Assembly (NCBI RefSeq): GCF_963675165.1
Contig: NC_087388.1
Location: 4,469,047-4,533,046 of the forward strand
Reading direction: 5' to 3'
DNA length: 64,000 nucleotides
From: Halichondria panicea
Lineage: Eukaryota > Porifera > Demospongiae > Suberitida > Halichondriidae
In this document: in pieces, positions 11,884-50,412 of the stretch
How the letters are laid out: every line of letters begins with the position of its first letter
How positions within the stretch are numbered: the first letter of the stretch is position 1
Position numbers and translations under genes: made by a program
Notes under the pieces: generated by a model
Database searches by the model: none
The model's input: only the letters and a program-made list of their open reading frames with translations
Told to the model about the DNA's origin: nothing

Positions 11884-12320
11884 AGTTCAGCTGTGAAGTT
11901 CAATATACTTTTGTACGGACTTTGTGCATAATTATAGTTAGTACATAATTATGTATTGCTATACATATTGACGTGCCATCAACTATTATTTTATTGTTAG
12001 AATGGGACAGAATGTATAGATCTACAAGAATTGAATTTCCGCCGGGGGAGGCATAATTATATGTACCTATCGGCATAATTATTATAGTCTAATGGTTTTG
12101 GAATGATAATTATAGATTGGCTGTGTCACCATGCAGACTTGCATGTGAAACCTGTGTGTTTGTTGTCACATGTCTGGAATAATGTGCCGACATGCATGAA
12201 TTGTGTTGCAATAACAATGATGTAAGCTTTTACATGCATGTCAGCAGATTCTGTAAAGTACATATTGTGCACGCATACATGGTTGCCTGTATTCCTACTC
12301 TCAATATCTAAGAAGTTCAG
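11884..12320. other. Spacer between catalase and death-fold gene 1
   Basis: Holds the catalase 3' flank and the upstream region of the next gene. AT-rich, without visible exons or structured repeats. Confidence 0.4.
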
Positions 12321-15129
12321 ATGTCGGAAAGAGTTGACATACAGTCTGTTCTCCAAAGGCTCGATGACGCCTCAAGTAGAACTCAATTTGAGCAGTTTAA
12401 GCTAGGAGTGGAGTGCTCGGGTGTTCCCAGAAAGATTGTTAAAACAGCTGAAAGCTTCTCCGATGTTTGCCGTCAGCTAAACAACCATGTAGCAAAGGGA
12501 GATGGATGTACTTGGTCGTATGCATTACTGAATGTCATTGGTGTGGTACATGAAGAACTGAGAGCCTTGGTTCCGTGTATCAATGAAGAATCTTTGCAAA
12601 GGTGTGAGAGGAATGAAAAATTTCACTTTGCAGTGATGATTATACGCGTGTGTAATTTTTTGGGGGAAGATGATTACAAGAAATTCTTTGGTCTCTGTCA
12701 AACTAACCTTCAGCAAACGCTGAACTTTGAAAAGTTTCCTATCATCGAATTGTTTCTGAGGGAGTTGATTAAACGAAAGATTATTTCGGTCATGAATGTG
12801 AAGGTTCTTGACGATAAGCTGGAAATAATGGGGCATATCCAGGCCAAAGAGGTTGTCCAGAAGTACAGAGAGGTGATTGGGAAACTGGGCCAAGAAACCC
12901 AGCAAGGTATATATATATATACATGCACTTGAATTGTCATCAATTGTGCTCGTAGATTTTATCGAATTGTTATTATTTGGTGATGTGTTTGATGACGTAC
13001 TGTGTTATTGTATTATTTAGGAGCACCACAAGCAGAAGCAGAACATCTAACCGAGTGTATAATAGGTAAATAAAACACAACAGTGTCAATTTTGTTATAA
13101 CTCTTGCATGGGCCATGCAATGAGTATTCAATTTACAATTACTTCAGCTGTACAAGAACAAGGAGAGTCAAAACAAGAAGCAGGTACGTGTGTGTGTGTT
13201 CATGGGACCACCATCAGTTGCTCTATGCTTTGATGATTTCATCATGTATACCTGTCAGCAAATCACTGGTGCTGATATGCTTTGATGATCTCGTCATGTA
13301 TACCTGTCAGCAAATCACTGGCGCTAACAAGGCAATTTTGCTAAATAAGGATAATTATTGTTAGCTCAGCATTATTATGTTATAATAGCATATTGTTGTC
13401 TTGTGATGTATAGATCTAGTTACAATGTATATAGAAGTAAAATTAATGTGGACCTTGGCCATAACATGCAAGGTCTGCTTTTGTATGGCCAGGTATATAA
13501 GAGGACACATGCATACAGAGCATCTCTAATATATGTACCTCTTCTATTCCTTTGAAGGATACGTGTATGTGTCCTCGTATATATACATACATGCATGCAT
13601 ATAATTATATCTTTAGTGTACGTACAGTACCTTAACCTCAAGCAGTTTTCGCTTTCACTATTAAATTATTGTCACCCTATACACCCCTGTAAACACTCAC
13701 TCTACCTTGTTACTATAATTATTATAAACGGGTACTAATTATAGCGAATTTGTAATTAACACTAAAATAAGTCCGCGCTAATATTAAATGCATAAAAAAC
13801 TTTTCTCTTTTCTTTTTTCTAATGAATGTGGCAAACTATAGCCCTTTTTTCCTCCGTATTTGTGCTTAATATTGTGCTAATGAATTTCCTACAAATCTGC
13901 CAAAATTATTACCATAAAAACAGAGGAAAATTTGAAAATGCTACACGTTTATAATAGTAGGGTATGCTCGTTAACCACAATTATTCCATACTAAAGCAAC
14001 CCTCTCTCCACACACTCTCAAACATGCAGGTTCTCCTGATCAGGACCTCTCCGACATTGAAAAAGACGGACCATCACGCATTTCTAAGAAATACAATGAG
14101 AAAACCCCTCTTCTTGTGGATAATCAGGACTCCAGCCCAGTTTTTTGTGTACAATATCAAGTAAAGAAAACGTCGTGTGGACTTTGCTGTACCTCTTTAT
14201 TTGTCGTTCTTGCACTTGCACTTGCATTTGCTTTGACTGGAGGATTTGGTTGGAATTCTGTGTCGATTAATATCAGCCAGAACCAAGTAGATGTGACGAA
14301 GTTTGCTGTACGAAATGAGACTCTATTTCTGGGAAAAGTCGATGCGAGTTGGGTATCAAATGCAACGGTCTCAGAGTGTACTCAGTATGGCGATTCGTCT
14401 CATATAAGTTACGTATATGTCGTTGATCAAGAAGATCTCAAAATGTACACCGTGTCAAAAGAAGACAGATTACACACTCGCCACGAATTACACCCGTCGA
14501 AAACTACTTACTTCCTCAGAGATTACTTTTGGGACGGTTCTTCTTTCAATCTGAGTTTCTACGCTATGAATCCGGCTGGAAGTACGGGCATCGGATATGT
14601 ACATATTTTCAATGATGAGGCGCAATTTGAGAACTACAAAAAGGGAGAACCAGCACTTCCTATTATATCGAAAAAACTAAACATTGGAACTTTGAACATC
14701 AGTGAGCCTACACTGTTTCAGTACAAGGTGGACCAACCCTCCTTCTATTTTGTTGCTGTTGAAACTCCTGCAGATGTCTACTACAGTTATTTGTTTCGTT
14801 CGAAAAAAGTTTATCTAGATTATACGGACTATGAGAAAAGCTGTGAACAAGTGTATGACGGTTCTCCTTGCTTTTTGAAGTTTACTAAAGCCGGAAGATA
14901 CTTTGTGTTGGCCTACGTTAAGCCTCTGGTAGAGGAAGGTTCATTCACTACACATTTACGTCTCAAAACTGGCATCGTACAAAATACCCAGCAACAAATC
15001 ATCAGGTACAAGTGTTTGACCTTCGGAGGATTGATTGTTATCGGGTTATTCCTACTAACACTTTTCATATGTATAACTTATCATAGCCGTAGGCACAAAG
15101 GAGAAAAAAATGTAGTAAATGCTGTGTAA
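12321..15129 (+). CDS. Death-fold (DED-like) two-TM receptor-like protein 1
   Basis: Four exons: 12321..12906, 13021..13065, 13148..13183, 14030..15129, all with phase 1 junctions; 588 residues. Exon 1 encodes two helical death-fold domains (about 8-95 and 105-190). The second reads like a DED: CNFLGEDDYKKFFGLC, then a LFLREL...KLEIMGH pattern. Two tiny exons encode an acidic linker. The last exon has a cytosolic stretch with acidic dileucine EKTPLL (246-251), TM1 about 274-295, an ectodomain of about 255 residues with N-glycosylation sequons, TM2 about 551-572, and a short basic tail. Both termini should be cytosolic. I do not recognise the ectodomain; it is shared with the genes at 23158 and 46828. 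Tail-to-tail with a five-TM gene. DED is assigned by eye and needs a profile search. Confidence 0.8.
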
Positions 15130-22555: not shown

Positions 22556-22985
22556 AGAGGAGGCTGGAACCACTTAACCTTAGCTAATTAAGGTCACTAA
22601 TTGGATTTATCCAAACTTCTCTTGCAGACTACTTCAAGCCTAATTTTTAGTGTCTATCAGTTTAAAACGTTATTTTTCAGGGGGGGTCAAATTTTATTTT
22701 CGCCAATTTTGCTCAGAAGCAGAGATACAAGTCTCAAAGCCAGCAATGCAGTGACCTCGAGAACAAGCCGCTCATGATATCGAGGCTAGTACAAGAGCAA
22801 GACTTTTGATTGTATCTCTGCTTCTGAGCAAAATTGGCGAAAATAAAATTTGACCCCCCCCTGAAAAATAACGTTTTAAACTGATAGACACTAAAAACTA
22901 GGCTTGAAGTAGTCTGCAAGAGAAGTTTGGATAAATCCAATTAGTGACCTTAATTAGCTAAGGTTAAGTGGTTCCAGCCTCCTCT
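22556..22985. repeat. Long near-perfect inverted repeat (175-bp arms)
   Basis: Arms 22556-22730 and 22810-22985 are reverse complements with very few differences, around an 80-bp loop holding a fragment of the TAGCCTCG family (ATCGAGGCTAG). A transcript would form a long hairpin. It lies about 170 bp upstream of the start codon of death-fold gene 2. Confidence 0.85.
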
Positions 22986-23157
22986 GTGCCTGATCTGGCT
23001 AACAAAAATTAGGGCGTGTCCACATCCGTATATGCCTGATCTGGCTATTGATCAAAAATGGAGAACGGAACCAGATGAAATTCGAACCAACAAGTTCAAT
23101 GTGGCTGATTCTAGCGTTATTTTAGAAACAACTCGGTCTGGGAAAATATACATCAAG

Positions 23158-26100
23158 ATGTCTTCTAGTTCTAATTCTAGCTCTATAGATATGTCAACGG
23201 TTCTCTATCATCTTAACGAAGCTTGTGAGGGTGCCCAATTAGAGCAGTTGAAGCTAGCGCTTGAATGCTTGGGGATCGGTCAAGGAAAAGTTAACAAAGT
23301 AAAGAAAGTACATGATGCTTACAATTGTTTCTGCTGTGAAAAATCAACTGCCAATGAGGCCATCCCACTACTTTATGCTATCCTCGAGGAGATTGCTGTG
23401 CCAGTCAGAGTTCTTCGGGGATTAAAAAAATGGACAACTACTGAAAAGCTCAAGGAATGTCGTAAAAGAAAAGACTTCAGTTTCGCCAAGATGATCATTA
23501 AGCTGTGTAATGAATTCACTCAAGAAGACTTTGCGAAGTTTTGCCAACTTTGTCTAGTTCACCTTGACCACATGGTTAATTCAGATCATTGTGATACAAT
23601 TGTGAAGCTGTTCCAGAAGCTTATTCGAGCCAGGAAAGTGGTTTATCCTGGCAGTGTGCAAGTCCTGAGTGAGATTCTGACAGAAATGCAGAAAGAGAGC
23701 AGTCTGGAGTATGTGCAAGAGTACAACAGAGTGATTGGATATTTTAGTGAGGCAACACAGGAAGGTGAGGTCTCTTTTATAGTTAATATTATACCTTAAT
23801 TAATATGTACAGGTTCTTTAGAAGATGCGCTACCTCTCCCTGGTACTAGTGAGCAGCAAGATGTGATGACTGATGTGGACAGCACTATTACGTTTGAAGC
23901 AGGTATAATTTAGTCATTAAATGTGCTTAATTGCATGTTGTCTGTTGTAGGTTTCCTTATTTCAATGGGGTAATCCCTTCCTGTCTTCATGTATAAAATC
24001 AATGTTTACACAGCTATATCCATTGAGCAACAAAGTAGAGGTCAACAATCCTTGGTAGTTGGTAACTCAACACCCATGGTGTACAGTACTCCACAAAGAC
24101 AGTCATGTACAGGTGAATTGTGTACATTATATAGTCTGCATGTGTATCAGGGGTTCATAAAGATTTATGACCTACTGCCTATATAGCAACAAAGTGTTCA
24201 TAGAATTGTGTATGGATTTTGCAATACAAATTTATATTTGAAGTGTGTGTATATTTAAGTGTATTTTCTTTCCGTGTGTAGATATCCGTAATGGTTATGG
24301 AACTGAGGAAGCACAAAGACCTGGTCATATCGGTCAATCTCCAGTGAAGGCATTCACTATTCCTAACAGTCCCACTGGTGAGCTCATAGCTAAGGAATGT
24401 TGTGTACCTTAATAATCTGGGTGATTTCCCTGGGACTGACCCTAACAATTCATTTTCTATTGTTACACATATTTAATTATTCATAGCCTACCAATTAAGG
24501 CTAATGCTGTATATGGGGGGTTTCAATGTGTTCTTTCTTCAATTGCTAATTGCCGAGTTTTCGCAACGCAAACGAAGGACGCACAAAAAGTAATCTGCTT
24601 GCATGTAATAATAGCTAAGAGTATCATTTGCAACAATTATTTACTATACGCACAATCAAAAACCCGATATGCGGTGTGCATGTTATATAAATATTATGTT
24701 TTTCTGTGTGTTGAGCAGGCATATCTAACCATAGCCTCCTTCACAAGGCCTCAACAAGGAGGCCTGCTAGCGCATGCGCAAAATTATTGGACAATTTCCC
24801 CGTAAAGTTTCCCATTAAACATAAATTTTACCAGAAAAAATATCCTGAATAAGTATACAGACAAAGAATACAAATTAAAGTCATACACAGAGCTACATAG
24901 CTACATAGCTAGCTAGCTAGAGACAGAGCTGTACGTTTGGTTGCAGCAGCTATTTCTTTCTGATAGAGTCTACATGTAGACTTTCACCAAGATTAGTAGC
25001 AGATGGGCGTGGCCTGTCCGTATAGGCTATTGTCAGCCTTCACTCCGTTCAGACGATTGTCATCCACACTGTTACAAGCTGTGAGTCTTTTGTTAACATA
25101 GCAGGCTAAGGCTAGCTATTAGAAATGCTATCAGATAGGCTAGAAACCTTCACAATCGAACTTTTATCTACTTTCTTCAATCCACTTCCGTTCGTTGTGA
25201 CGTCATTGTTTTACTGAGCATATACGATGTTATCCAAATTACCCAGTTTCTGGGTAATAGGTAGCGCATGCGCAAACAGTCGATACCAGGCCCATCTTCA
25301 GTGCGGCCTGGAATCAAGGCTAATCTAACCATAGATAGAACAGTAACAGGGATTGGAAACAAACCCGTGAAACATTCTGCGTTATAGGGCGTAGCTAAAA
25401 CTGCTCATTACCTGTCTTGACTACCATACAATGTGCTGTACATAGCTCGACTAAGCCACTCAGCCACTATCACCAAGCAAATAAATGCTATACAAGAAGG
25501 AATAACCCTTAATGGAAGTCAGAGAGGTTAAGGCTCGTGATGTGTTTTAAAGTACCGTATAGCGGGTAATTTTCGTGGGATAAAAAATTCGTTTATCTGG
25601 AAAACGGTGATTTTCGTGAGTATAATTAGTCTCGTTGCCTGCACTGCATTCATACGTTACAGCAAGCCACGCCTACATTAAAATTTCGTGGAGGTCAGCT
25701 TGACCATGAAAATAACAAAATTTTTTACTCCACGAAAATTACCCGCTATACGGTATACTAAAGCAGTTCGAAGGACTATACTGCAAATGTTTATGAACAC
25801 TGAAAAGTGAATGCGTAACTATACGCACTGATCTGATAATCAGAGTAAAAAAAGAACCTAACCTACCTAAAAGGGCAAGTTGCATGGGTCGTCACCCTGT
25901 TTCCATGAAACTTAAGTTTCACAGCCGAAAACCAGGCGATGCCCCAACTTGATTATGTACTTCAAGTACAGCTTATTCATAGCATGAAGCTATTGTATAT
26001 GTAGCGCTTAGATACATGTCCGTTTGCTATTTTGGCTTTACAACAGGGAAAGACATAGTGACAAACTAAACTCCACAAAAAATTTTGAAAACAGAGTAAA

Positions 26101-27542
26101 TAAAACGGACTAGTCAGTGGTGTAACTTACTTCTCTAGAGTACCTCCCTGAGTTTTCGCTAGTGAATCGATAGGAGAGCTAGAAACAGTAAAAATACAAC
26201 GAAAGAATGAAAATATCCGCGATAACGCAGAGTGTTTTACTTTTTTACACAGGGAGTCCCAATCCCTGTCGATGATCTAATATTCAAGCCTCTATGTATT
26301 CATGCAGGTTCTACTCCACAAGTTGATAGCTCACCAACAGACAGTGAGCCATTTCAAACTGACTCGGGTATCTCACCTCAGCAAAACTCTAGTGTCGAAA
26401 TCTTCGTCAATGATACAGATGTTTTTGATAGCAGTCAAGATATTGAGGTGGATGGAGGAAACGATAAGAAAAAGGAGGAATCAAAACCGCTCATTGGTGA
26501 GATGCGCACGGATTCCCCAAAACTATTCAACAAAAAGAACAAAATGTTGTTGATTGGATGCATAGCTATTGCTGTTTTAACAGTACTCTTTGCTGGCTCT
26601 GTTGCCATGGTTAAAATAGGCATACAAATATATCTCAAAAATTTGGCCATTGTCGATAAGAGCACCCGGAATAATACACTATTTGCAGTCGAAGGTGACA
26701 CTATTGTGCTAGCGGGAATGGTGGATACTGGTGTTGTTTCCAAGGTAACGGTGGAAGAGACGACAGAACGTGGCGATTCATCACATGTGAGCAGCGTGTT
26801 CCTTGTACGTCAGAATGACCTCAAAAAGCACAGTGTGAGTATCAGCAAACATTTTAGCGGGTTCTACTCTAAAATACCGTGGAGGACAACTGGACTTATC
26901 GATCACACCTACATTTTAGGCGGTGGACTCATTAACTATTCATTCTGTGCTACCCATCCCTCTGAAGGCACGGGTGACGGATATATATACATTTTCGATA
27001 GTGAGAAGCATTATTCTGACTATTCAGCCCAACTTCCTGGCTCTCAATCGCTTTTTAGCGTTTACAAAGAAAAGCTTAATATCGGAACTTTTAACCAGTT
27101 GGAGTGTAGGTCGCTTGAGTTCCCGATAGCCGATCCAGGTTATTATTTTGTAGTTGTCGATACACCTGGAGATCTCTACTACAATTATTCATATGAAATC
27201 CGAGATATTCATTTGGATCACATGGACTATGATTCAGTTTGCGAACAAGTGTACGAGGGTCAGGCCTGCTCATTCGATCTGCCTACAGAAGTTGGATGCT
27301 ACTCTGTTCTAGCGTACGTGACCCCTCATGTTGACCTTGAATCCCACACTACACATCTCCGCCTGATGACCAGTGGTGTCACTAAAACTGTTAAATATGA
27401 ACTGACGATGTCTGTGGTTTTGTTTTGTGTTGGTGGAGGCGTTCTATTGCTGTGTTTTGTATTTCTTGCTGTTTTTGTGATTGTATGTGTACTTAGGCAA
27501 AAAAAACTGTATCGTCGTCGGTTGCTTTTCTTGTCAGTATAA
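23158..27542 (+). CDS. Death-fold (DED-like) two-TM receptor-like protein 2
   Basis: Five exons: 23158..23764, 23813..23902, 24014..24112, 24282..24377, 26308..27542, all phase 1 junctions, giving 708 residues. Exon 1 encodes two death-fold domains; the second (FAKMIIKLCNEFTQEDF, LCLVHLDH, LFQKLIRA) is DED-like. Three linker exons of 90, 99 and 96 nt encode a polar cytosolic stretch. The last exon has ESKPLI (355-360), TM1 about 377-399, an ectodomain homologous to gene 1 (EKLNIGT, CEQVYEG, TTHLRLMT shared), TM2 about 666-690, and a basic tail. An RGD in the ectodomain is probably incidental. The start ATG at 23158 was chosen because the family begins near SMSTVLY; the frame stays open upstream but that stretch is repeat-derived. 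The last intron holds several MITEs. Confidence 0.8.
24732..25322. mobile_element. 590-bp Mutator-like element in death-fold gene 2 intron
   Basis: The left end is TAGCCTCCTTCACAAGGCC and the right end GGCCTGGAATCAAGGCTA; GCGCATGCGCAAA lies inward of both. ATCTAACCA flanks both sides (24723-24731, 25323-25331). The left and right terminal hairpins differ, so the ends have exchanged or diverged. No transposase seen. Confidence 0.8.
25553..25755. mobile_element. MITE with TACCGTATAGCG ends
   Basis: Inverted ends TACCGTATAGCGGGTAATTT, with TTCGTGGGA inward, in the same intron as the 24732 element. Its body resembles the right half of the 37023-37360 compound copy (GCACTGCATT, TTTCGTGGAGGT). Confidence 0.8.
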
Positions 27543-27641
27543 TTATGTTTATTACTGAATTGCTGCTTATCTACATGTATTTGTTTCTTACGAATTTTAC
27601 TTGTCTATAAATTGAAATGCACTTCTGATATGGTGTAGATC

Positions 27642-27958
27642 TAGTTGGGCGGAGCCCGACCGTCCCTGACGGGAGGTCGGGTTGCAAGCCTATCTGGGAT
27701 TTGTTCTAGCGCCACTATAGTGGCGCCCTATCAGATTGCAGCATTTTTCACGTGGCTTGGTTACACTTCCGCTTGCATCTAGTTGCAAAACCACATGCAG
27801 TATTGCTGTGCCATCCTGTGGTTTACACGTCATCAAGTCGGTTAACACCCACTTGAGAATAATAATATTCATAGCAGTACTACATAATGCGCAGAACAAA
27901 TTCCAGATAGGCTTGCAACCCGACCTCCCGTCAGGGACGGTCGGGCTCCGCCCAACTA
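27642..27958. mobile_element. 317-bp inverted-repeat element, TAGTTGGGCGG ends
   Basis: TIRs of about 65 bp beginning TAGTTGGGCGGAGCCCGACC, with an internal hairpin (CCGTCCCTGACGGGAGG). GTGTAGATC flanks both sides (27633-27641, 27959-27967), a 9-bp duplication as in the TAGCCTCG family. Partial ends occur at about 20330 and 28066. Confidence 0.85.
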
Positions 27959-27983
27959 GTGTAGATCCACATGCGAACTCTTT

Positions 27984-28166: not shown

Positions 28167-31100
28167 ATGGCAGAGAAAATTGATCCCTCTATGTCAATGG
28201 TCCTATATCGCATTCATCGAGCTTGTGAATATGCCCAGTTCGAGCAGTTGAAGCTAGCCGTTGAATGCTTGGGCATTAGTCAAAGACAAATTGACAGAAT
28301 GAAACAAGTCTATGAAGCTTACAATTTTCTCGATAGTCAACAGTCAACTACCAGTGAAGCTATCCCTCTACTTTATGCTGTTCTAGAGGAGATGGATGTG
28401 CAGGCTCTAGAGCTTTCTGCATTAAAGAAGTTTACAACGTCAAAACAACTCGAGGCATGTCGTAAACGAAAAGATTTCGGTTTTGCCAAGATGATCATCA
28501 AGCTGTGCAACGAATTCGGTGAAGAAGACTTTAGGGACTTTCGCCAACTTTGTCTAGTTCACCTTGACCACACGGTTAATTCAGATCATTGTGATACAAT
28601 TGTGAAGCTGTTCCAGAAGCTTATTCGAGCCAAGAAAGTGGTTCATCCTGGCAGTGTGCAAGTCCTGAGTGAGATTCTGACAGGAATGCAGAAAGAGAGC
28701 AGTCTGGAATATGTGCAAGAGTACAACAGAGTGATTGGAAATTTTAGTCAGGCAACACAGGAAGGTGAGGTCTCTTTCATTGTCACATTCTGGATGCAAC
28801 TATAGCTATAATTATGTTTAAAAAGAGGAACCGGTACATCTGTAGCTATGAGATTCTTGTATTTGTGAAGCTATATATACCCCATCATTATTATTTACTA
28901 GAAGGTCTACCCAACCCTCGTAACAGTGAGGAAGCTAGGATTGATAAAGATGGTCTCGAAACGGCTAGAACAGGTGACCTAACAATTATTAGAAAACAAT
29001 GTGTATCTAGGTGGCACAAACTTCACATGTCTTGCACCACATCATTATTATTTACTTATTGTTATAGAAGATCTACCCAACCATCATAACAATGAGGAAG
29101 CTAGGATTGATAAAGATGGTATCGAAACGGCTAGAACAGGTGACCTAAGAAAACAATGTGCATTTTAGTTTAGTTACACAAACTTCACATGTCTTGCACT
29201 GCCATGCTAATTAAGAGCCATTGTACAAGGAGATCGATCTATACTAATAATGGATGTTCTTTGTATTTATACACAATGCAGCTACAAACCCAGCGAGGTA
29301 TCCCATACTTGAATCGGCTAAGGTGAGTTATGCATGTTTGAGCTCATGACAGCTACCGGGTTCATAGTATGTGTATAGCGTGGTGCTATATGTTTTAGGA
29401 ACACATAAGGAATTAGTTTTATATGGAATCTTTAATTGTCTGTACGTACATTAAAAACCAGTCTGCATGTGGTTTTAAAGAAGGCTTCTTTCGATAGCCA
29501 TGTGACTCATAAATTCTTTCCATTGATAATATAAGTTCAACGTTGCATTTTCCAGTCTTATTGTGTGCTAACAGAGCAACACTATTTGGCCCCTCATCCT
29601 GCGGTTTCACCACATGGGACTCAAGCTGGTTGTATTCGTACTGATCGTGTATGGGATACATCACGCATTTGTGAGCTGAAGGTACATTTTATGAACCCTG
29701 AACTGCTTCGAGCTCCCGGTAAAGCCTGGAGAGTTGGTAATGAGCAGCTCACGACTGAGACTGTTCTTGCTTGGGCCACTAGAGGTTGGAATAAATCTCA
29801 ATCTAACTATCCACAAATTTCCGAACACCCTGCTCTCAACGTGGATGAATCTCAAATAAGAGTGACCTTTGGTAGTAAGTGTATATATTTGGTATGTGTA
29901 AAGTGATAACTTTTTTCCTGCAGCAACTGGAGTGTGTTGGTCGTGTGTTGGCCGAGATGCTGAATACAATCAGGGTAAATGTACGATGTACCTCAACGTC
30001 TACAACATGACCCAACAAGACCAATTAAGCCTTATTCTTCACGAATTTGGGCATGCCCTTGGCTTAGAGCACGAGCATCAGCGATCTGACTTTTGGGCAG
30101 TTCTACAAAATCTTTTGGCATATAAACCGAAGAAATTACCTCACGCTTGTGATGAACACTTGAGGTTCCCGTTTGAAGAGGGCGTGACTAGATTTCAAAC
30201 TGAGTATGATCCAAATAGCATCATGCACTACTGGTAAGGTATTTTCCCTGCTGCTTTTGCATGTATCTTATTTAACTGAGAGATTAGAGTGATGCTGCAT
30301 TGGCATTAATTGGCCCACACACACTTTTCTCATTGGATATGACCCTCGTTTTCCCCATCATGCAGCTTTACAACTGAGAGGTTGAAGTATGATTATAGGC
30401 CATTCCAAACAACAAGTTATTAGTTTTAAATGTGGCAGATTTCGATGTTAGAGCTTCGTTGTCGTATAAAAGCGAGCAAAAGCTAAGAAACTAGCTAGCT
30501 ACACGCGGCCTTTATTCGAGGTACCCTACGTATTTACAGCTAAAGTGATCCCGTACCAAGAACAATGGAAAAGGGTCACTACAATAGAAAGCTAGAATTG
30601 TGACTGGTTTTTTGTCTCTGTTTAGCTGACTCTAGGATCATACTTCTCTGAGACTCCAGGCTTCTTTGCTGTGATCCTAGTCCACAGCGCACATCATGAG
30701 ACATCAACCCATATATCTATATGTACCACTAAAACTCTGTTCTCAAATTTCAGCATGCCTCCAGTCTGGTTTTAGTTTTATTGCTCCTGAGTTGCTGTGC
30801 TTAGACAGCTCAGTCATACCATCACTATACATGCACTGCTCTTCTGGTTTCTTTAAAATAAATGTATGTCACCAGCTACTGCCTAGCCAAGGGTTTGAAC
30901 TTTAGTGCTCTAGCTGGAATGTCATTGCAGCCTTTTCAGAGTGCGTAGCAAAGCTTGTCCATGGAGTGTTGCTACTCTACTTAGTATAGTTAGCTCTGCA
31001 CTAGAATGCTAGCTATTGCAGCTGTAAGAGCGGGAAAAGAGCTGCGAAGCTGCACCTACCTGTTGTATGCGCTTAATTGTATGGACTCTGAACTTTTGGC

Positions 31101-31473
31101 ATCCTTTTTAGCAACGATCATGTTCAACTTTTGCACCAATGTAAATTTAATTGGTAGCTTCATGTTTGGTGCCTCCACCAAGGCATCAGCACCCACGGTG
31201 CTTTCATTTTTAAAGTAGTACAGTAACACAGTTGAATTGCTGTATCAATTTGTGTGTAGGTTCAGGATTGATTGGCTGCTGCCTCAATACCATAATCTTG
31301 AAAAAGTGAGAGCTATGACTGTTCAGGAACTACCAGAATTGGAAAGAAAGGTGATTGAAGGTGTTCACCTGAGGGACTATAACAAAGGCCGAATGGCAAA
31401 AGGACCATCACAAAGGGACTATGATACTCTTGAAGGAATCTACAAACATTTAAAGCTGGCAAAAAAACTTTAA
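28167..31473 (+). CDS. Death-fold (DED-like) domains fused to an astacin-like zinc metalloprotease
   Basis: Seven exons: 28167..28764, 28902..28973, 29068..29139, 29282..29322, 29556..29871, 29924..30233, 31260..31473; all phases match, 540 residues. Exon 1 encodes the same two death-fold domains as genes 1 and 2 (FAKMIIKLCNEFGEEDF, LFQKLIRAKK). Exons 2 and 3 are a tandem duplicate. The C-terminal half is a zincin: WDTSRICELKVHF start, zinc site HEFGHALGLEHEHQR (HExxHxxGxxHE, with the His/Glu ligand pattern of astacins), and a Met-turn SIMHYW. No signal peptide or TM is visible, so a cytosolic protease is implied, which is unusual because astacins are normally secreted. Fusion of the halves rests on splice phase; a missed boundary between two genes is the main alternative. 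Confidence 0.72.
30405..31215. repeat. Dispersed repeat R2 joined to an inverted R1 fragment
   Basis: Fills most of the last intron of the DED-protease gene. The stretch with GAGACTCCAGGCTTCTTTGC and CAGCATGCCTCCAGTCTGGT recurs at about 58425-58530. The right part (about 30930-31215) resembles R1 in reverse orientation. Confidence 0.6.
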
Positions 31474-46827: not shown

Positions 46828-49800
46828 CTACACGTGCACTATCGTTTGCTGTCGACAATATCTGCACAGACACAAGACACAAAACACCATTGCTAAAAGA
46901 GAGCATGCAACACAAATGCCTCCTAAGCTAGCCACTATCGCTGTTAAAAAATGTGTCCATCTCGTCACTAGACACAAATGAGTTGAGAACGAATTATCAA
47001 AGTCGCCTTTATTCACATATACAGCCAGATAAACGGGACTCCTAGAAATTCCTCCGAGATCGCACTGATTATCTCCACTGTAACCAAACGTACAAGCAGG
47101 AGGCTCGGAGAAGTCGGTTGCATCGAGGTAATACTGTAAGTAGTCATAGCGATAGTAAAACTGGATATTTCCCGGAGTATCGGCAATGATGTAATGGTAG
47201 CCATTGACTAGAGAAGTGTATGTCAAATTTGTACACTCGAAATTGCCGGGACTGCCTATACGAAGATTGTGACTTTGAGCTCCTTTTCTGCTTAGACAGT
47301 TGTCCTCTTGGAGGTACTGAGTATGTGCATCATTGTTGTCGAATATCAACAAAGTTCCTGAAAGCCCAGGATCTTCAATTGCCATTAGACAAATGCTGAA
47401 ATCGATTTTCGAGCCAGAAAGTAAATAGAAGTGATCACCTAGAACGTTTAAAGTGCACTGAGAATTAGGCTGATTGAGGATACCATTCGAGGTTTTAGTG
47501 TTGTTTCGAGTTCTACGTAGCAACTGGTTGTTGGGCACGACATAAAGGTTGTTGGTGTGTGAGAACTCGTCTGAAGATGGGCACTCATGTATTGAACTAG
47601 TGGAGAGTTTAAAAGGGTCGCTAAAATCAGCCACAATCACCACTTGCTGTACAGTCGCGTACACCTTCAGGTTAGAGTTAGAGTGAGGAGCATTGTACAC
47701 ACCTATCCCAATACAGCCTAGAGAAGTTAGTATTCCTAATAGAATGCATACTATGACGGTAAGTGTCAATGGGATGTTACATTTTCGGTTGGGAAGTTGT
47801 CGTCGGTGGTTGTGGGTATTAAATTGAATAGGTAGTCCATTGTCATTGTCAGTATCCAGTATAAGTTTAGACTCTTCATTGATGAGTAACTCGTCGGAAA
47901 TGGTAGAAGTTGTAGAGTCTTGAGTGGTGAATGATGGCGGCTGTTCTGCATCTTGCACTTTTGTGAAGCTTGTGATTTTGACCATCTGACTTGATCCAGG
48001 AGGCATCAGGTGATTTCCTACAGTGCATGGTACATGTATCAGGCACTGAAAGAGTCATAACAAAAATTGTGATCAAATTAGAATGCTATTTCTATTTCGT
48101 ACAATAATAACAATTCTACAATTCCCTCGACTATTCTGTATAAATCTTTGCGATTATTCAAGTATAGAAGATTTTTCATATGGTAAACATTTTCAGTATT
48201 GAAGAGCATCATACAAAAGTTAAAATAATGATACTATTCTACCACAATATAAATCCAACGTCAATATCCTGAGCGGTGAGTATTTAAAATACGAAAATTA
48301 TCTGCTGTACGTGTATCTCAATCACTATTGCTCCTATTTGAAAGTATAAGAGACAAACAAACTTCTCGATCTGAATAATTATGATCTCTGTTGCTCTGAC
48401 AGTGATAAAGAATAACCTTTCTGACTTGCATTTCAAGAGCTGGACTTATAGAGCTGGCAGGTAGAAAAAGAGACTTAGTTTCATAAAAGAGTGTAACTTC
48501 GAGGCAAACACCTGGTTGGATTTAATTAATATTTTGAGACAAAACTACTGTTTTCGAAATTAACCCATCCCATCAGTAGTTCCTTTATATCATGCAATTA
48601 GGGTGGGCGTAATCTCGGTAGAATACAGTGACGTACGTACAATTCTAGAATAATGGCTATGATATCACACCTGATGAGCTGTCCTCCTCTTGATTAGCAG
48701 GGGCATCCCTTTCAACAGCCGTGTCCCCAGTGGCACCTGTAGAATAGTTACAGACAAATTAATGACAACATTATAATGTTGATACAATTGCATGGATCGA
48801 GGCTTTTAGTCTTATCAAAGTAGTGTGGTCAATGTGGCATTAATTGATTATGAGCATACACAGTGTATGGTACTGTATTACAACAATGTGCTCACCTGCG
48901 ATACTGAAAGTACCAATGTTACCACCACTTTGGCCATTCTCACCACCTGCAACAGGATAAAGACTCTAATCGCACATTTTTCACTTCAGTTAATTGACAT
49001 AGTATTAAGGTATTGTTCAATGTGGCATTTTGATTAGGCGCATGAGCATAATATAATAATTATGGTACAACAATGTTATTGTATTCACCTGTGATACTGA
49101 AAGTACTAATGTTATTACCACCTCGGCCGTTCTCACCACCTGCTATAGGAAAGAACAAGAACAAACAGTAAAGACTCTAATGCATTGTTTTCAACACACT
49201 AAAACTGTCAATAATTAATATTATACGGATGTGCTTTGCTAAAAATAGTTCGCTTAAATTATCACAGCTTTATCTTAACCTTATAAAGATTATTGTACCT
49301 CCGTCTGAAGCTTGAATGGGTTGTGTAGGGAAACTCCCGTCACTACTTATCACCGGATCATTGTACTGCCCAGTTCTGGTGTAATCTTCCAATCTCTTAG
49401 CCAATTCAGAGCGTCCAATCGTTTCCAACCACTGAGCAAGCAAGGAGACATCACCACTCGATATCAAAGTCTTACGATGCAGTAGTAAACACAGTTTCTC
49501 TATAGATTCAATTTTTCCGGAGTCACATTCGAGAATGTCTCCCCCGAGAGATTGAAGTTGAACAAAATTTTCCCTCGAGACTTGATTACACACTCCGATT
49601 ACAGCAGAAGGATACACCAAAGCATGTTTGCAATACTCCAAAGCTTGCTGATCGAGGTCGATAATATTCGACTCTTGTACACCCACAAAAGTTAGTATGT
49701 ATTGGGTCATCTCCAATGCTCTGCGCTTGTACTCGGGGTGAGCTGATAGAAATGAGTAGAACTTTCGTAAGTTGATCACCTTCCCCACATCTCCTCCCCC

Positions 49801-49929
49801 CAGCCCCAATAGTTGGAAGAAGAGCCTGATCTTGGGTAAGTGGAACTGATGATTGATGTATTGATCAATGCTGGAGAATCTTTGGTTGAGCTCACGACTC
49901 CTCCTGGCTGCTTCTCTGCTTGAGTCCAT
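46828..49929 (-). CDS. Death-fold (DED-like) two-TM receptor-like protein 3 (fourth family member)
   Basis: Five exons on the minus strand: 49299..49929, 49089..49142, 48896..48946, 48671..48736, 46828..48017, all phase 1 junctions, giving 663 residues. Exon 1 holds two helical domains; the second ends in a DED-like pattern (IEKLCLLLHRKTLISSGDVS, LLAQWLETIGRSELAKRLED). Exons 2 and 3 are a diverged tandem duplicate (GGENG then ...TFSI). The last exon carries EESKLI (315-320), TM1 about 349-371, a Cys-bearing ectodomain matching genes 1 and 2 (DTPGNIQFYYRYDY, STHLCLVTRW), TM2 and a short tail. It is the most diverged member and on the opposite strand. The domain call is by eye; the shared gene layout is the stronger argument for homology. 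Confidence 0.78.
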
Positions 49930-50412
49930 TGTGGAGCTAGATATACTTTTAATGCAGAAACAGTAGATCTATCTCTAGGCACTGGGCTAGCTAGAGCGAG
50001 AGCGGGGGGCTACCCTATAGAGTTCTTTCCTGATATACTACATGTAGTACTAATGTAATGATGATCGCTTCCTTTTCCTTCCTGCAGTGAAAAAGTGGGC
50101 GTGTTTGCTGAGCCGATCCCAGGCTGAGATTTCGCTTTTATAACGGTAGGCAAAAAAACTGTTTGCCTAACCGTTATAAAAGCGAAAACTCGGCATGGGA
50201 TAGAGGCTAGTTAATAATACAGTGTAGCTATATAGACTGTAGAAGCAAGAATCAGTAATCTAGACAAGAACATAATTATATGCACTTATGCCCTAGCTAG
50301 CTTGTTATAATAGCCGCATAATTAGATAATTATAATAGACGTAAATCGAGAGAAATTATCATTTCAATAATAGAACGACTCGACTCTGATGAGAAAGAAG
50401 TCACAATAGAAG
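49930..50412. other. Spacer with a decayed TAGCCTCG hairpin
   Basis: About 50104-50211 is a palindrome matching the 18047 element (TTTCGCTTTTATAACGG arms, ATAGAGGCTAG end), with a damaged left end. The remainder is AT-rich and featureless. Confidence 0.55.

Follow-up and report, generated by a model that had tools for sequence, protein, structure and literature searches.

Can the recruitment logic of initiator caspases be coupled to a protease of an unrelated fold? The question is raised by a gene of the sponge Halichondria panicea at positions 28167-31473 of a 64,000-nucleotide stretch of contig NC_087388.1 (positions 4,469,047 to 4,533,046, assembly GCF_963675165.1), hereafter the window, which a first-pass annotation had read as a death effector domain (DED) exon spliced to an astacin-type metalloprotease. 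A latent protease that is recruited by death folds is known from caspases. We put at roughly 0.55 the probability that the window gene belongs to a large family whose members, intracellular M12A metalloproteases coupled to death folds, would be latent zymogens activated by clustering. The whole protein would then work like an initiator caspase without belonging to that family.

A probable tandem DED joined in phase to a zinc protease

We read positions 28167-31473 as seven exons with AG/GT borders, in phase throughout, which encode 541 amino acids and a stop (Table 1). Both the coordinates and the in-phase splicing of the first-pass annotation were thereby borne out, as were the intact zinc site (HEFGHALGLEHE) and Met-turn that it had described. 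The predicted absence of a signal peptide and membrane segment also agreed with the hydropathy profile: no hydrophobic stretch was found in the protein (maximal 19-residue hydropathy of 0.99, versus 3.34 in an open reading frame (ORF) at 26226-27542), and no signal peptide was seen (maximal 12-residue hydropathy near the N-terminus of 0.69, judged by hydropathy only and with no dedicated predictor). It is from the absent hydrophobic stretch that we infer a cytosolic protein. Linker exons 2 and 3 (28902-29139) are a tandem duplication that takes in intron sequence.

Table 1 Features of the gene and of related exons in the window
Feature	Position	Strand	Notes
Exon 1, probable tandem death effector domain	28167..28764	+	ATG at 28167; donor phase 1; DED 1.6e-6 over residues 106-188, under cut-off
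Exon 2, linker exon, 72 nt	28902..28973	+	phase 1-1; 81% DNA identity over 173 bp with exon 3 unit
Exon 3, linker exon, 72 nt	29068..29139	+	phase 1-1
Exon 4, linker exon, 41 nt	29282..29322	+	phase 1 to 0
Exon 5, N-terminal part of zincin, preceded by pro-segment with switch-like Cys	29556..29874	+	phase-0 acceptor, recurs in paralogues
Candidate cysteine-switch residue, exon 5 residue 3 (S-Y-C)	29562..29564	+	putative counterpart of myroilysin pro-segment Cys
Candidate mature N-terminus, Gly 8 residues before conserved Trp	29628..29630	+	G-x7-W spacing as in mature myroilysin chain 5zjk, by offset
Exon 6, catalytic exon	29924..30233	+	Astacin 9e-12, over cut-off
Zinc-binding motif HEFGHALGLEHE with family-specific Glu	30040..30075	+	read from sequence
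Met-turn SIMHY	30217..30231	+	read from sequence
Exon 7, conserved C-terminal exon	31260..31473	+	stop 31471-31473; homologous exons in paralogues
Close DED exon copy (23190-23770) and membrane-protein ORF (26226-27542)	22954..27542	+	candidate receptor partner; known as ORFs only
Homologue of the DED exon (12312-12932; weak Pfam DED match, 0.019), then membrane-protein-like ORF (13975-15129)	12312..15129	+	known as ORFs only
DED-containing ORF (49270-49968), then membrane-protein-like ORF (46828-48054)	46828..49968	-	known as ORFs only

The death-fold nature of the N-terminal half, another element of the first-pass annotation, was consistent with both sequence and modelled fold. Exon 1 alone matched Pfam DED below the curated cut-off, best over its second copy, and the three window copies of exon 1, when aligned, matched the same profile at E ≤ 1 (best 1.5e-8); bit scores in the window relatives were 32.9, 35.1 and 15.6 (cut-off 35.9). 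An AlphaFold2 model built from the three window copies has 12 helices in two helical bundles (predicted local distance difference test, 71.8; predicted template-modelling (TM) score, 0.70). Its four best Foldseek matches in the PDB were all tandem DEDs, namely CASP8 (7lvj, probability 0.99), a FADD/CASP8/cFLIP assembly (0.98) and MC159 (0.84 and 0.69), although these matches were weak (E of 0.038 or worse, TM 0.35-0.41, root-mean-square deviation above 10 Å across the pair). Single FADD DEDs gave target-normalised TM values of 0.57-0.64 at E > 2, and none of the matches attained E ≤ 0.001. On the Pfam match and the modelled fold together, exon 1 is probably a tandem DED.

A probable family of death-fold-coupled loci

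We searched the genome (131 Mb, 39 contigs) with the zincin part of the window gene. The search returned 93 exon matches, from which 48 catalytic-exon loci were listed and one secreted astacin was set aside, so that the window gene is not a one-off but one of about 48 loci. Forty-three catalytic exons were read, the window's included (five were not fetched); loci are named by the kilobase positions of their catalytic exons (for example, C1:5339), and several paralogue exon borders were set by eye.

Death-fold exons occurred before or after the zincin, on the same strand and within about 4 kb. A neighbouring same-strand Death, CARD or DED match at Pfam E ≤ 0.05 was present at 15 of the 43 loci read. 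Along with the DED of the window gene (1.6e-6), these were CARDs at C1:5339 (4e-5) and C1:5334 (0.0054) and Death domains at C1:5411 (0.00074), C1:5327 (0.038), C7:4932 (0.0077), C7:4956 (0.013), C3:1428 (1.6e-5), C3:1443 (4.5e-5), C3:1437 (1.8e-11), C3:1440 (1.4e-9), C3:1420 (0.015), C8:5382 (0.0052, in an exon upstream of the zincin), C1:7740 (0.0017, downstream of the zincin) and C1:5370 (0.049 before and 0.0023 after it). The curated Pfam cut-off was exceeded at five of the 15, by the CARD of C1:5339 and the Death domains of C3:1428, C3:1443, C3:1437 and C3:1440. Three more loci were counted by homology (C1:5318, C1:5381 and C1:5468), their upstream exon being 42-55% identical to that of C1:5327 and matching Pfam Death at 0.095 or not at all. 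Weaker candidates were seen at two of the 25 others: C8:4828, by our own hidden Markov model (HMM) only, and C2:7141, where a Death domain over the cut-off lies 4.1 kb downstream.

Profiles built from these exons also matched solved death folds. That of eight N-terminal-side Death exons matched ankyrin-2 (1.1e-5) and RIPK1 (1.9e-4), that of seven C-terminal-side Death exons matched FADD (8.9e-6), and the best solved match of the CARD profile was the ICEBERG CARD (0.011). At C3:1440, the Death exon and the zincin C-terminal exon share one open frame of 222 amino acids. The CARD part of two C7 genes and of C8:4828 had no Pfam CARD match and was assigned by likeness to the others; matches to our own HMMs include their own seeds. 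Genome-wide Pfam death-fold matches near zincins, compiled with a hand-picked part of the Death list, were discarded as a statistic because they were too few, in part since only 150 of 503 Death candidates had been scored.

The paralogues also share a splice grammar with the window gene. In 32 of 42 cases, as judged by a mechanical rule under which AAG is also accepted, the zincin exon starts at a phase-0 acceptor with a Cys soon after it. The donor of the death-fold exon was clear in four of the 12 gene stretches scanned, and in each it was in phase 1 (window, C1:5381, C1:5334 and C1:5339). Exon 1 of the window gene is probably transcribed jointly with exons 5-7, and a grammar common to DED, Death and CARD exons is what the swapping of N-terminal modules between genes would leave.

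Class of the catalytic domain

The protease half had been called astacin-type, and as a matter of Pfam class this stood: bit scores for the Astacin profile were 44.6 and 45.5 (the latter for exon 6 alone), the curated cut-off being 22.5, and the match ended at profile position 143 of 189. As a statement of nearest kinship it may not hold, since among PDB sequences the zincin matched bacterial myroilysin best (3.8e-6), with animal astacins at 0.0036 or worse. The domain has the HExxHxxGxxHE motif, a Met-turn with Tyr and the family-specific Glu. Reading the alignments for catalytic disulphides of the C64-C84 type, we found no family-conserved counterpart of the Cys eight residues before HExxH, which is present in seven of seven secreted astacins read (L003 was not captured). 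On reading the window protein we saw no aspartate-switch motif FxGD, with the secreted astacins a weak control, as only L006 of eight loci has the motif in frame (L003 gave no frame), and Pfam gave no C14 caspase catalytic domain match in the window protein. We class the protease domain as M12A, myroilysin type, and not as an animal secreted astacin; given its closer sequence match to myroilysin than to animal astacins, the idea of an astacin stripped of its disulphides may misdescribe its history.

A tree of 120 columns was built from 40 of the 43 family exons, 40 of 80 prokaryotic loci (from a scan seeded with query motifs, which biases the locus list) and seven of eight secreted astacins. 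The family formed one group (90/34), within which the window catalytic exon grouped with L044, L018 and L057 (the set C12:2369, C8:5382 and C1:7740; 96/78). Two members of this group carry a Death domain, C8:5382 in an upstream exon and C1:7740 downstream of the zincin, so the window gene may have swapped its own module for the DED exon found locally. We do not claim horizontal transfer of the zincin: long branches confound the tree, and PMC9848320, in the sections used here, argues for a derivation of bacterial astacins from holozoans.

Across the 43 catalytic exons the zinc-site motif was HEFGH in 37, including the window gene, and HQFGH in six (L017, L022, L041, two copies in L049, and L056 on the minus strand). 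The latter lack the catalytic Glu and would be pseudoproteases or decaying copies. The Met-turn reads S-I/V-M-H in 41 of the 43 rows. Ratios of non-synonymous to synonymous substitution rates (dN/dS) in the catalytic exon were 0.20-0.60 in ten of 12 pairs, 0.92 for L015/L036 and 1.57 for the HQFGH pair L017/L022, all being point estimates that were not compared with 1.

A candidate cysteine switch

According to the sections of PMC9848320 and PMC9629494 drawn on here, myroilysin is kept latent by a pro-segment Cys that sits on the zinc, where animal astacins use an aspartate switch, and its mature N-terminal Gly binds the family-specific Glu. In each of two Myroides sequences the stretch from signal region to catalytic site contains a single Cys, 20 residues before a Trp, and the mature chain 5zjk starts, by offset, at a Gly eight residues before that Trp (G-x7-W). 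The window gene has a Cys at residue 3 of exon 5 and a Gly eight residues before the Trp. Across the family, 33 of 37 HEFGH copies, the window's among them, have a Cys at one of the first eight positions of the zincin exon, as do two of six HQFGH copies (Fisher p = 0.007), a difference that speaks for such a switch. Four HEFGH copies depart from the pattern: in L038 and L048 a Cys lies nearby, in L043 the segment is shortened and in L032 it is incomplete. In the family the Cys stands 25-41 residues before the Trp, versus 20 in Myroides, the homology of place being by order. These features make a case for a candidate cysteine-switch zymogen, in which the death-fold region would occupy the place of the bacterial enzyme's signal peptide.

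DED exon copies upstream of membrane-protein-like ORFs

The DED-like exon had further been described as common to membrane proteins, and copies of exon 1 do lie upstream of membrane-protein-like ORFs in the window. The copy at 23190-23770 is 83.7% identical in DNA across 583 bp, whereas that at 12321-12905 is 33% identical as protein. The ORFs downstream of both read as proteins with two membrane helices, hydropathy having been computed for 26226-27542 only. The DED of ORF 49270-49968 scored 35.1 bits against the cut-off of 35.9, and 37.0 in the genome search. Homology with the 23190-23770 copy begins 23 nt past the start of the coding sequence and reaches the query end at 28770, just past the donor; a second DNA query (28764-29560) gave no further match at that copy, and the two open frames are similar for about six codons beyond the donor. 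Since the homology stops near the donor with no match beyond it, the shared unit is essentially the exon. Synonymous divergence per site (dS) between exon 1 and this copy is 0.094 in the second half (28482-28763 versus ~23479-23763) and 0.82 in the first, so that a recent gene conversion of the second DED between the protease and the receptor-like gene is likely.

A proposed mechanism and its alternatives

The sequences of this family show a death-fold module on the N-terminal side (a tandem DED in the window gene, Death or CARD in paralogues) and/or a Death domain on the C-terminal side, together with a pro-segment in which a Cys recurs and a myroilysin-like zincin whose zinc site, Met-turn and family-specific Glu are intact. 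We propose that the enzyme would be made latent in the cytosol, with the pro-segment Cys blocking the zinc, and that death-fold partners would cluster it; for the window gene the simplest such partners would be the DED membrane proteins next to it, in one of which the second DED is almost the same. Clustering would permit cleavage before the conserved Gly, whereupon the zinc would be freed and the new N-terminus seated on the family-specific Glu, and the active protease would then cut immune or cell-death substrates. The HQFGH paralogues could be inactive decoys, like c-FLIP for caspase-8. More tentatively, the roughly 48 loci might together form a second, caspase-independent death-fold protease arm, made up of cytosolic cysteine-switch metalloproteases recruited through DED, CARD or Death (in one case through a DED exon that has stayed almost the same as the one in a membrane receptor gene next to it) and of E-to-Q decoys in the manner of c-FLIP.

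If true, recruitment logic would be separable from the caspase fold, the same wiring being found on an unrelated zinc protease, with different death folds and in a whole family, and an enzyme class described as extracellular would have a cytosolic role. The zymogen mechanism (Cys switch plus N-terminal Gly) would be testable and could be searched for in other animal proteomes.

Several results weigh against this reading. Exon 1 scored only 28.7 bits against the Pfam DED cut-off of 35.9, and neither a sequence search (best match an SMC protein, 0.0012) nor a profile search (0.26 or worse) of the PDB returned a DED for it; the SMC protein and chance matches from the sequence searches were set aside and the fold search was used instead. 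The remaining eight of the 12 stretches scanned for a death-fold donor gave none or several, 25 of the 43 loci read have no counted death fold (their flanks were often short), and where loci stand in tandem, a Death exon taken as 'C-terminal' might instead open the gene that follows. The tree leaves the origin of the zincin undecided, bacterial and animal origin being confounded by long branches. We regard the difference in the exon-start Cys between HEFGH and HQFGH copies as only suggestive, because a looser rule, tried first, gave no separation (35/37 versus 5/6, p = 0.37), the stricter rule was framed post hoc, after that result, and the HQFGH copies are not independent (L017 and L022 are sisters in the tree, and the two L049 copies are adjacent and alike by eye).

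Three other explanations were considered. The death fold might act as an autoinhibitor or sensor instead of a recruiter, a host or pathogen protease cutting the linker and so releasing the enzyme in a guard or decoy logic. This would suit the pro-segment and candidate cleavage site between death fold and catalytic domain, as well as an arms race in a large, diverging family; we nevertheless think it unlikely, since Death domains on the C-terminal side, if they belong to the same gene, fit recruitment better than N-terminal masking. It is more improbable still that the family consists mostly of non-catalytic scaffolds or regulators that bind through the zincin fold. The six HQFGH exons and the dN/dS of 1.57 for L017/L022 speak for such a role, against which stand the 37 exons, the window's included, that keep HEFGH and the near-universal Met-turn.

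The least probable of the three, to which we give very little credence, makes two adjacent genes of the locus: a DED adaptor, encoded by exon 1 and possibly the linker exons, and a separate zincin starting near 29556. Zincin exons of the C1-cluster paralogues have in-frame Mets near their start and could in principle start alone, a further point against a fused gene. In the window, the first in-frame Met of the zincin exon lies inside the domain, leaving no usable start, and the linker exons have no in-frame Met; moreover, the phase-0 acceptor recurs among paralogues, whose Death or CARD exons lie on the same side. These observations weaken the two-gene alternative and support a single in-phase gene for a tandem DED and an intact metzincin, as the first-pass annotation had it.

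Relation to known systems

The window protein resembles the tandem-DED initiator caspases (caspase-8/10 type) in having a probable N-terminal tandem DED, a linker and a C-terminal protease without a signal peptide, but the protease is a C14 cysteine protease there and a zinc metzincin here. In this genome the metalloprotease apparently stands beside DED caspases and does not take their place, given two sites where same-strand pairs of DED matches lie 0.8-1.9 kb from a caspase domain (C10:859830-862894 and C10:2923384-2921362, domain matches only). With myroilysin (Myroides M12A; PDB 5gwd, 5czw and 5zjk) it shares the HEFGHALG zinc site, a pro-segment Cys and a mature Gly eight residues before Trp, whereas myroilysin is a secreted bacterial enzyme without death folds. 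With animal astacins (crayfish astacin, meprins, BMP1/tolloid) it shares the Pfam Astacin core, HExxHxxGxxHE and the Met-turn; in the sections of PMC9848320 used, however, those enzymes are described as extracellular and disulphide-bonded, with an aspartate-switch pro-peptide, and none of this was seen in the window protein.

Kaur et al. 2021 (PMC8195603) describe death-like proteins of the sponge Amphimedon whose effectors are caspase, PNPase or HD. As far as that paper's relevant sections go, the Death-like/TRADD-N proteins likewise form families that have expanded and been shuffled, with a death-like domain at the N-terminus and varying effectors, caspase among them, at the C-terminus, but the section on those effectors names no metalloprotease. 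Elsewhere the paper describes a bacterial death-like-domain system whose effectors include inactive zincin-like metalloprotease domains, with PUA and STAND NTPase, and metallopeptidases are rare effectors in related bacterial conflict systems according to the relevant parts of PMC8195603 and PMC7159879. Such systems pair death-like signalling with a zincin and so offer a precedent at the system level, although the zincin there is inactive and not an intact M12A domain fused to a metazoan DED, CARD or Death. In the open-licence PMC literature, searched mostly at the level of titles and abstract openings, we found no death-fold-metalloprotease fusion.

Other observations

A domain of about 80 amino acids that looks like a beta-grasp precedes the zincin in L015, L028, L032, L042, L047 and L049; it had no convincing Pfam match (two scanned), and a six-sequence profile matched nothing convincing in the PDB. 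Downstream of some paralogues we recognised a SAM-like domain, by reading and our own HMM only and with no Pfam match in L047. Just upstream of the window gene, at ~27640-27960, long terminal inverted repeats seen by eye suggest a small DNA transposon. In L038 (positions 1-50, from C7:4930649 on), the frame before the CARD-like, Death and zincin exons has LLQLAGDVETNPGPG, which we take to be a 2A-type ribosome-skipping motif. Finally, an open frame at L048 6591-7499, downstream of a Death/zincin gene, looks like a GTPase by its motifs.

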